Below are positions 46,430 to 50,268 of a stretch of 64,000 nt of DNA, piece by piece (the stretch's first letter is position 1; each line of letters starts with the position of its first letter). The notes beneath the pieces are model-generated. The model made no database searches and was not told the DNA's origin. It saw only the letters and a list, made by a program, of their open reading frames with translations. Source of the DNA: Phormidium tenue FACHB-1052 (lineage in GTDB: Bacteria > Cyanobacteriota > Cyanobacteriia > Phormidesmidales > Phormidesmidaceae); the NCBI RefSeq assembly GCF_014696675.1, contig NZ_JACJQN010000001.1, positions 310,001-374,000 on the forward strand, written 5' to 3'. A program made the position numbers and the translations under genes.

Positions 46430-48139
46430 ATGAGCTATCGCATGGACCGCCGTGCCTATGCCGAAACCTTTGGCCCGACGGTAGGCGATCGCATTCGCTT
46501 AGCGGACACAGAGCTGATTATTGAGGTCGAGCAAGACTTCACTACCTACGGGGACGAGGTGAAATTTGGCGGCGGCAAGGTGATCCGTGACGGTATGGGG
46601 CAGTCGCCGATCGGACGCGACGCGGGCGCAGTGGATATGGTCATCACCAACGCGCTAATTTTGGACTGGTGGGGCATTGTCAAAGCTGACATCGGCATTA
46701 GAGACGGCAAAATCGACAAAATTGGTAAAGCAGGCAACCCCTACATTCAAGACAATGTCGACATCATTATTGGCCCCGGCACCGAGGTAGTGGCCGGAGA
46801 AGGCATGATTGTCACCGCTGGCGGCATTGACAGTCACATTCATTTCATTTGCCCTCAGCAGATTGACACTGCGATCGCCTCCGGCATCACCACCATGATC
46901 GGCGGCGGCACTGGTCCGGCCACTGGCACCAATGCCACCACCTGCACCCCTGGCGCTTGGCATATCTGGCGCATGCTGCAAGCCGCCGATGCCTTCCCCA
47001 TGAACCTGGGCTTTTTGGGCAAGGGCAACAGCGCTCAGCCAGAGGGGTTAGTGGAGCAGGTGAAAGCGGGTGCCATGGGCCTCAAGCTTCATGAAGACTG
47101 GGGCACAACTCCGGCTACCATCGACACCTGTCTGGGAGTAGCTGACGAGTACGATGTTCAGGTGGCGATCCACTCCGACACCCTCAACGAAGCGGGCTTT
47201 GTTGAAGACACCATCGCCGCTTTCAAAAACCGGGTGATTCACACCTATCACACCGAGGGGGCTGGCGGCGGTCACGCGCCGGACATCATTAAGGTGTGCG
47301 GTGAGGCCAACGTGCTGCCCTCATCGACCAACCCTACCCGGCCCTACACCCGCAACACCCTCGACGAACACCTCGATATGCTGATGGTGTGCCACCACCT
47401 CAGCCCCAGCATTCCCGAAGATATTGCCTTCGCCGAGTCGCGCATTCGCCGCGAAACCATTGCCGCCGAAGACATCCTCCACGACATGGGTGCCTTTAGC
47501 ATGATCTCCTCCGACTCCCAGGCTATGGGTCGGGTGGGGGAAGTGGTGATTCGCACCTGGCAGACCGCCCACAAAATGAAGGTCCAGCGCGGGCCGCTGG
47601 CGGAGGATTCTGAGCGCAACGACAACCACCGAGCCAAGCGCTACGTGGCCAAATACACCATCAACCCCGCCATCACCCACGGCATTGCCAACCACGTCGG
47701 TTCAATCGAAGCGGGCAAACTGGCAGATGTTTGCCTGTGGCGACCCGCCTTTTTTGGGGTGAAGCCTGAGATTGTGATCAAGGGCGGCTTGATCGCCTGG
47801 GCGCAGATGGGCGATGCCAACGCCAGCATTCCGACGCCGCAGCCAGTGCATATGCGCCCCATGTTTGGCAGCTACGGGGGGGCGATCGCCGCCACTTCCC
47901 TCAGCTTTATTTCCCAAGCTGCAATGGATCTGGGCATCCCTGAACACATTGGTCTCGCTAAAGCTACCGCTGCTGTGGCTAACTGCCGCAGCCTCAGCAA
48001 GGCTGACATGAAGCTCAACGCCTACCAGCCCCACATGGAGGTCAACGTCGAAACCTACGAAGTGCGAGCCGATGGCGAGCTGCTGACCTGTGAACCGGCT
48101 GAGGTTCTACCTATGGCCCAGCGATACTTCTTGTTTTGA
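46430..48139 (+). CDS. ureC: Urease subunit alpha
   Basis: A 569-residue catalytic subunit of nickel urease, which splits urea to ammonia and carbamate. The metal ligands are in [13 protein letters not shown] (two His), the carbamylated Lys in GLKLHEDWG, and [31 protein letters not shown] and the Asp in SSDSQAMGR. All are intact and the length is normal. ureA, ureB and the ureDEFG accessory genes are absent from the window, so the genes must lie elsewhere, as in some other cyanobacteria. I see no clear NtcA box (GTA-N8-TAC) in the 130 bp upstream after the sigma terminator. Confidence 0.98.
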
Positions 48140-48190
48140 CCCCAGGCAGAGCAATGAAGAGCCTAGACGGATTGAGCCAGGGTTGGCACG

Positions 48191-48438
48191 CTATAAAACT
48201 GAGGTGATTTCACTTGACCTGCCACCCTCCAACGCTTCCCACAAAGCTAAAATATAGTCATAGGCGTTGGCAGACTTCACCTGCTGCTCCCCAAACTTTC
48301 CCAATAGCCGACTTTGAACCACTACATAGGTTCCTAAAGGCAGCAATAGTTTGTGTTTACCATAATTTTGTTGCGAATGTCGTTAAGCGGTGGCAGATTT
48401 TCAAGTGTCCACAGTAGAATATAGTTGCGCTCAAACAT
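48191..48438 (-). pseudogene. Frameshifted small gene, unknown family
   Basis: From an ATG at 48438 the minus strand reads MFERNYILLWTLENLPPLND, then IRNK, and meets a stop a few codons after the sequence AACAAAATTATGG. One extra A in that run would join the frame to YGKHKLLLPLGTYVVVQSRL..., which continues as normal-looking coding sequence (VKSANAYDYILALWEALEGG) to TAG. The total of 248 nt is one short of 83 codons. I do not recognise the family. Either it is a decaying gene, or the homopolymer is a sequencing error. Its start overlaps the first hairpin of yfr1. Confidence 0.4.
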
Positions 48439-48500
48439 AAATGTTTGAGTTCACTCCTCACACCACACTCCGCCCAGGCTTTTAGTCTGGGCGGTTCCTT
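48427..48500 (+). ncRNA. yfr1: Yfr1 small regulatory RNA
   Basis: The invariant single-stranded motif ACTCCTCACAC is at 48453-48463. It is framed by a 5' hairpin (CTCAAACAT / ATGTTTGAG, 48430-48449) and a 3' terminator hairpin (CCGCCCAG / CTGGGCGG, 48470-48494, then TTCCTTATTT), exactly the Yfr1 architecture. A TAGAAT -10 box at 48415-48420 puts the start near 48427. Yfr1 is a trans-acting small RNA of cyanobacteria known to bind porin mRNAs (in Prochlorococcus) and needed for stress growth (in Synechococcus). In most cyanobacteria it lies between guaB and trxA; here trxA is downstream as expected but guaB is missing. Confidence 0.92.
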
Positions 48501-48654
48501 ATTTAAAGGATCTTCGGCCTGAAAAGGCGGAAATCCGGCTAGTTTAGCTGACTTAGCGCCCATCCCCTCGGTAGATATTGACCACTCGCCCAAGAAGCCG
48601 GGGGTTGGCTATGATAAGATTGCGTGTGACTAATAACGGCAAGGAACACAAGGC

Positions 48655-48975
48655 ATGGCAGCCGCTCAGGTAACAGATTCTACGTTTAAGCAAGAAGTTC
48701 TTGAAAGTACCGTTCCCGTACTGGTTGACTTTTGGGCTCCCTGGTGTGGCCCCTGCCGTATGGTAGCTCCGGTAGTCGAGGAAATTGCTGAGCAGTACGA
48801 CGGCCAAATTAAAGTCGTTAAGGTCAATACCGACGAGAATCCGAGCGTGGCCAGCCAGTATGGGATCCGCAGCATCCCCACCCTGATGATCTTTAAAGAG
48901 GGGCAGCGGGTTGACATGGTAGTGGGCGCTGTACCCAAAACCACCCTAGCCAACACCCTTGAGAAGTATCTCTAG
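48655..48975 (+). CDS. trxA: Thioredoxin (m-type)
   Basis: A 106-residue protein-disulfide reductase. The active site [16 protein letters not shown] and the cis-Pro loop [11 protein letters not shown] are present. In cyanobacteria this m-type thioredoxin is reduced by ferredoxin and regulates Calvin-cycle enzymes. The gene is monocistronic; a hairpin covers its stop codon. Its location after yfr1 is conserved in the phylum. Confidence 0.97.
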
Positions 48976-49203: not shown

Positions 49204-50268
49204 ATGGTTGCGCTTCCCTCAAATTTACCCTCTAGCATTCAGGCCGATTTGGCCGCAGTGTTTGAGCAATTGCCCCACCTGGAGCATGGCAAGATCATCC
49301 GCCAGGTGCTGGAAACCATTCTGCGCATGATGGGACGGGAGGCCGACCGACTCGACTGGAAGATTTTAAACTACGCCCTGCTAGACATGGAGCAGGGCTT
49401 TCAAGTCTTTTACCCCTACCGGCACACCCGCAAAATTACTATCTTTGGCTCAGCGCGTACGGGGGCAATCAGCCCCGATTATCAGCTAGCTGAGAAGTTT
49501 GCCAAGCAGATCACCGAGCTGGGTTTTATGGTTATGACCGGTGCCGGGGGCGGCATTATGGAGGCGGGTAACGCTGGAGCTGGCGCAGATCAATCCTTCG
49601 GGTTAAACATTCAGCTACCCTTTGAGCAAGGCGCTAACCCGGTGATGGAGGGCGACCCTAAGCTAATCAATTTCAAGTATTTCTTTACCCGCAAGCTGTT
49701 TTTCCTGCGCGAAAGTGACGCCCTGGTGCTGTTTCCGGGAGGGTTTGGCACCCAAGACGAAGCCTTTGAGTCGCTGACGCTGATTCAGACGGGTAAGGCT
49801 GACCCCATGCCCATCGTCATGGTCGATCATCCCGGCGGTAACTACTGGCAAGGGTGGGATAACTATATTCGCGAGCACCTGCTGAGCCGAGGGTTGATTA
49901 GCCCCGACGACCCCAGTTTGTACACGATTACTGACAACGTCGATGACGCCTGCCACGCGATCAGCAGTTTTTATCGGGTATATCATTCCTGTCGCTATAC
50001 CAGCGATCGCCTGATCATTCGCCTCAAGAGCGACCTGCCCGAAGGTGCGATCGACCTGCTCAACCAAGAATTTGGCGACATCTTAGCCAAGGGGAAAATT
50101 GAAAAGTCTGCCGCCCTGCCCGAAGAGCAGAAAGACGACACCATCGCTTTGCCTCGGTTGGTGATGCACTTCAACAACCGCGACTTTGGTCGGCTGCACC
50201 AGTTGATCTGGCGGCTCAACGATCTGGGCGACCATCGTCCCGAGGCTCAGCACCCCGAGCAGAAGTAA
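49204..50268 (+). CDS. LOG family / TIGR00730 Rossmann-fold protein
   Basis: A 354-residue protein from an ATG; a GTG nine codons upstream is open. The nucleotide-binding core has TIFGSARTGAIS, MTGAGGGIMEAGNAGAG and the LOG motif PGGFGTQDEAFE, which hydrolyses cytokinin or nucleoside monophosphates in other members. An N-terminal helical domain of about 85 residues and a C-terminal domain of about 100 residues (HSCRYTSDRLIIRLKS) make it larger than plant LOG, as is usual for the cyanobacterial form. The true substrate is unknown. Confidence 0.9.
   Translation: MVALPSNLPSSIQADLAAVFEQLPHLEHGKIIRQVLETILRMMGREADRLDWKILNYALLDMEQGFQVFYPYRHTRKITIFGSARTGAISPDYQLAEKFAKQITELGFMVMTGAGGGIMEAGNAGAGADQSFGLNIQLPFEQGANPVMEGDPKLINFKYFFTRKLFFLRESDALVLFPGGFGTQDEAFESLTLIQTGKADPMPIVMVDHPGGNYWQGWDNYIREHLLSRGLISPDDPSLYTITDNVDDACHAISSFYRVYHSCRYTSDRLIIRLKSDLPEGAIDLLNQEFGDILAKGKIEKSAALPEEQKDDTIALPRLVMHFNNRDFGRLHQLIWRLNDLGDHRPEAQHPEQK

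Follow-up and report, generated by a model that had tools for sequence, protein, structure and literature searches.

Yfr1 and its described relatives

Yfr1 RNAs of cyanobacteria are abundant transcripts of 54 to 69 nt. Voss et al. 2007 (PMC2190773) described the family, now Rfam RF01116, as a single-copy RNA in which an 11-nt motif lies between two hairpins, the 3′ one being of the terminator type, with trxA downstream. The yfr1 locus of Phormidium tenue FACHB-1052, which we studied in a window of 64,000 nucleotides (the whole stretch of DNA analyzed; contig NZ_JACJQN010000001.1, positions 310,001 to 374,000), shares the motif arrangement, the terminator-type 3′ hairpin, the single copy, and the downstream trxA. 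It differs from the usual form (PMC2190773) in having the 5′ stem GCTCAAAC/GTTTGAGT instead of GCGGAGAC/GTTTCCGT, in having ureC rather than guaB3 upstream, and in carrying a clade-specific upstream element. The yfr1-trxA pair also occurs without an upstream guaB in Synechocystis, Crocosphaera, and Gloeobacter (PMC2190773, Table 2), where sll0586, pcrA, and trpE lie upstream and the rearrangements are independent.

In Nostoc, the Yfr1 motif pairs with the mRNAs of an OprB-type porin, murC, and mraY and mostly represses them, and porin and cell-wall genes are tested targets in both Prochlorococcus and Nostoc (PMC6974561). The locus studied here resembles that of Nostoc sp. PCC 7120 in that the motif is predicted to pair near the starts of mRNAs for OprB-type porins and cell-wall proteins, whereas the Nostoc genome retains the order guaB-yfr1-trxA and its targets were tested experimentally, those here being predicted. 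Yfr10 (PMC6778093) has the motif in common with Yfr1 but holds it in a hairpin loop and lacks conserved synteny. As the motif of FACHB-1052 is unpaired between two hairpins, the RNA belongs to Yfr1 and not to Yfr10.

A single, structurally conserved yfr1 gene

The gene comprises the following features:

48427..48499, + strand: yfr1 small RNA gene (RF01116 covariance match 48429-48496; probable 5′ end at about 48427)
48429..48450, + strand: 5′ hairpin, a compensated variant of the usual one
48453..48463, + strand: invariant motif ACTCCTCACAC, seed predicted to pair with target mRNAs
48470..48499, + strand: 3′ hairpin and U-rich tail, intrinsic terminator (11 pairs, 8 of them G-C)

The RF01116 model matched the plus strand over its full length (model positions 1-59) with 44.7 bits (E 1.3e-5 in the window), above the gathering score of 38 bits, and this was the only match in the 5.82-Mb genome, that is, yfr1 is single copy. 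The motif occurs once in the window, against a chance expectation of 0.01. In the minimum free energy fold (-31.0 kcal/mol), two hairpins flank an unpaired stretch of the 16-20 nt expected for Yfr1, which contains the invariant ACUCCUCACAC. The 5′ hairpin has 8-9 bp (6-10 bp in the family) with paired changes across relatives, and the 3′ hairpin (48470-48494) was scored as a terminator that joins a G+C-rich helix to the U tail TTCCTTATTT. The location is likewise that of a Yfr1 gene: a cyanobacterium with trxA downstream, guaB3 being elsewhere. The original prediction, made for 48427-48500, had reported the 11-nt motif, both flanking hairpins, and a -10 box and had named a covariance search as a check; the search result, the fold, and the conservation of the -10 box in the genus confirm each of these elements.

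Covariation was assessed on the 22 distinct Yfr1 sequences of the genus, with standard pairs in 98.1% of the paired cells. Both partners have changed at seven pairs, and in the 3′ hairpin such changes are found at five pairs. The covariation score was 0.271 compared with 0.173 after shuffling, a value of 0.271 was reached by none of 500 shuffles, and the signal was destroyed when the pairing partners were slid. Because the paired changes keep the helices, both hairpins are real. Judged by these sequence features, the copy is an ordinary, functional-looking Yfr1, a member of a small regulatory RNA family present in nearly all cyanobacteria.

No Yfr1 match was obtained in 4 of the 195 genomes (G044, G060, G126, and G196). 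Three of these genomes measure 1.7-1.8 Mb, which fits the loss of Yfr1 that is reportedly known from some Prochlorococcus. In one other genome (G203), the yfr1 locus L284 contains ACTCCTCACAC twice at a spacing of 149 nt, possibly a tandem Yfr1 or a Yfr10-like motif.

One ancestral rearrangement placed ureC upstream

The genes around yfr1 are as follows:

46430..48139, + strand: ureC, urease alpha subunit, the new upstream neighbor (Pfam Urease_alpha, Amidohydro_1)
48655..48975, + strand: trxA, thioredoxin (Pfam PF00085, 125.3 bits)
49204..50268, + strand: LOG/lysine-decarboxylase-like gene (PF03641), which travels with yfr1-trxA in the same order in relatives

The neighborhood is thus as first described, with ureC on the 5′ side, trxA downstream, and guaB not adjacent. 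Loss of guaB was ruled out: the only guaB of the genome, of the GuaB3 type, is intact and lies on contig C33 (TIGR01304, 549.9 bits), and TIGR01302, the standard IMP dehydrogenase model, gave nothing above cut-off in this genome.

We compared the 26 genus members with a yfr1 locus, FACHB-1052 included. The gene directly upstream of yfr1 is ureC in 18 of them, and G014, in which genes are inserted between ureC and yfr1, is of the same type. GuaB3 lies upstream in five members and in the examined other genera of the family. Among the ureC-type genomes that were examined, GuaB3 lies at another site, still preceded by its former upstream block (kinase, anmK, trkA-like) and now mostly followed by chlP. 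The cut therefore fell between guaB3 and yfr1, with the guaB3 block relocated as a whole and yfr1-trxA-LOG remaining linked. When five proteins were concatenated for a tree, genomes of the ureC type formed one clade with 100% bootstrap support that includes G014 and also G004, which has a CAX-type transporter upstream and a transposase downstream of yfr1. On this tree, the arrangements of G014 and G004 are later changes within the clade, and the order ureC-yfr1-trxA is one old event in the ancestor of one genus clade. A genome-specific oddity is ruled out by the gene order common to the clade. The earlier suggestion of a rearranged locus with a preserved yfr1-trxA link, along with the synteny comparison proposed for it, is therefore borne out as a single event in a clade ancestor, GuaB3 being upstream in other relatives.

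As a separate observation, the Rfam model "5′ ureB sRNA" (RF02514, from Helicobacter) scored 105.5 bits antisense inside ureC (46585-46871, - strand). All other ureC loci that were scanned, whether yfr1-linked or not, gave 99-138 bits, and the signal is probably protein-coding conservation seen by the model, not a shared antisense RNA.

The region between ureC and yfr1

Two conserved blocks precede the gene:

48357..48388, + strand: extra upstream element TTACCATAATTTTGTTGCGAATGTCGTTAAGC (32 nt), confined to the rearranged (ureC-yfr1) clade
48390..48425, + strand: conserved promoter block GTGGCAGATTTTCAAGTGTCCACAGTAGAATATAG, with a -10 box and a GTGG..CCAC inverted repeat, genus-wide and in part of the family

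A -10-like TAGAAT/TATAGT at 48415-48425 is conserved across the genus. The inverted repeat (48390-48412) lies over the -35 region of yfr1, is conserved in the genus and recognizable in part of the family, and is a candidate regulator site.

A gene remnant had been proposed between ureC and yfr1, at about 48140-48420. The two ORFs there (67 and 77 aa) have no Pfam match. One chance-level 20-nt match aside, just the yfr1-adjacent part (about 48240-48420) matches other genomes, always directly before yfr1. The remnant was therefore rejected, and the region appears to consist of upstream sequence belonging to yfr1 together with non-coding spacer. The part directly before yfr1 is best read as its promoter region.

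One might suppose that selection favored the rearrangement for the new promoter it supplied to yfr1, with the 48357-48388 element altering the regulation of the gene. Copies of the element in almost every ureC-clade genome are 84-95% alike, guaB-type relatives lack it, and in G014 and G004 it has remained beside yfr1 despite the displacement of ureC. However, a source was sought behind ureC or guaB and elsewhere in the relatives and was not found; the element could postdate the rearrangement, and no protein is known to bind it. We regard this explanation as unlikely.

Gene order and the link to trxA

The spacer between yfr1 and trxA holds one further feature:

48605..48621, + strand: trxA promoter block TTGGCTATGATAAGATT, conserved in almost the whole genus and also in certain further genera of the family

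The rearrangement had been taken as support for a functional tie of yfr1 to trxA rather than to guaB, a reading under which yfr1 has remained next to trxA through a cis action on it, such as leader function, read-through, or coupled expression. A single rearrangement event cannot demonstrate such a tie. The two links were counted across the class with one locus per genus, loci cut by contig ends being excluded. Among the remaining 101 genera, both links are present in 74, only the trxA link in 15, only the guaB link in 7, and neither in 5. The trxA link, which also survived the rearrangement here, is hence kept in 89/101 genera and the guaB link in 81/101. The excess of trxA-only over guaB-only genera is not significant (15 versus 7, p = 0.13; by family 12 versus 5, p = 0.14), and these p values are generous even so, given shared ancestry. 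At least 12 genera have yfr1 without trxA downstream. Voss et al. 2007 (PMC2190773) had reported the links in 27 and 25 of 31, with a number of trxA-only genomes in their list, so that loss of guaB with retention of trxA is not a new point.

The sequence between the genes argues the same way. Almost every genus member, and part of the other genera of the family, has the promoter-like block TTGGCTATGGTAAGATT in the yfr1-trxA spacer, and with a conserved trxA promoter behind the Yfr1 terminator, the two genes look like separate transcription units. Pairing of Yfr1 in cis with the trxA or guaB3 start was no better than shuffled (z 0.1 and 0.7); the ureC start region showed moderate pairing (z -2.2). 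With no significant bias, a separate trxA promoter, and chance-level pairing, the proposed tie to trxA is unsupported, and we consider retention through cis action very improbable. Since gene order breaks on both sides of yfr1 across the phylum, linkage to trxA cannot be taken as evidence that the two genes are functionally connected. That the locus has decayed and lost its function is scarcely credible: its Rfam score is below that of most cyanobacterial copies because of fully compensated stem changes, and the motif, terminator, and promoter are intact and conserved.

Predicted trans targets

The exact complement GTGTGAGGAG occurs seven times in the genome outside yfr1. At three of these sites, an annotatable gene begins 18-20 nt further on with its ATG, so that the complement falls in the ribosome-binding region; two of the genes are tandem SLH-OprB porins and one encodes a Phage_holin_4_2 protein. 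The predicted targets with a perfect GTGTGAGGAG before the start codon are:

L314, G000:C9:66011-66031 (SLH-OprB porin)
L315, C9:67882-67904 (SLH-OprB porin)
L318, C36:183143-183163 (Phage_holin_4_2 protein)

The predicted duplexes of Yfr1 with the two porins and the holin-like gene have energies of -22.7, -22.7, and -18.7 kcal/mol (z -4.3, -4.2, and -3.7). The porin site recurs in the genus, frequently as two tandem sites with a spacing of about 1.9 kb, and the matching genes of relatives include phytoene/squalene-synthase-like, MurC-like, and GlmM-like genes (named by eye, not by profile). The site count alone is weak evidence, because an SD-like GAGGAG often precedes an ATG and because permuting the first four bases as a control left about 89 sites, compared with about 165 for the unpermuted sequence in the same genomes (about a dozen of which are the antisense of yfr1 itself). 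More weight attaches to the recurrence at the same genes. Repression of porin or cell-wall mRNAs through motif pairing, as described for Yfr1, is predicted for FACHB-1052 from perfect complementarity to two OprB start regions at sites recurrent in the genus.

Variation of the 5′ hairpin

Of 132 loci representing many families, 102 have the same 5′ stem core, GCGGAGAC/GTTTCCGT. Within the genus, the 5′ hairpin takes six compensated forms that are patchy on the tree. When grouped into types, they require 9 changes on the genus tree compared with 13.8 with shuffled labels, a distribution that is patchy yet non-random. In FACHB-1052, the patch from -35 to 0 is 91% identical to that of G021, G022, and G014 and 70% identical to that of the nearest relatives G011 and G019, whereas the genes adjoining yfr1 are closest, or about equally close, to G011 and G019.

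This pattern suggests short local exchange as the simplest reading; incomplete sorting would be an alternative, as would a mistaken tree, in which one node has 52% support. Tentatively, the promoter and 5′ hairpin (about 35-115 bp before the motif) may have been exchanged between lineages of the genus as a small cassette, a possibility to which we give less than even weight. Cassette exchange would explain why alternative, fully compensated 5′ hairpins are patchy here while the hairpin is nearly frozen in most other cyanobacteria.

Interpretation

Taken together, FACHB-1052 very probably has a functional, single-copy Yfr1 that acts in trans on porin and envelope mRNAs, with a locus position that is historical and no cis relation to trxA. 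From the observed gene, its structure, covariation, synteny, and complementarity, we infer its transcription and the repression of its targets. The gene would be transcribed from its own promoter into a short RNA of about 70 nt ending at its own terminator. The unpaired motif would then pair with the ribosome-binding region of the mRNAs of the outer-membrane porin and a few envelope genes, and this pairing would block their translation. The place of yfr1 between ureC and trxA would reflect one ancestral cut between guaB3 and yfr1.

These results correct a tempting inference, as the yfr1-trxA link is no evidence of a functional tie, and they provide a concrete predicted Yfr1 target set for the lineage, the tandem porins. 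If the cassette reading is true, the form of the hairpin may tune Yfr1 stability or target choice. The compensated 5′ hairpins found across the genus also form a natural set of variants with which to ask what role this hairpin has.
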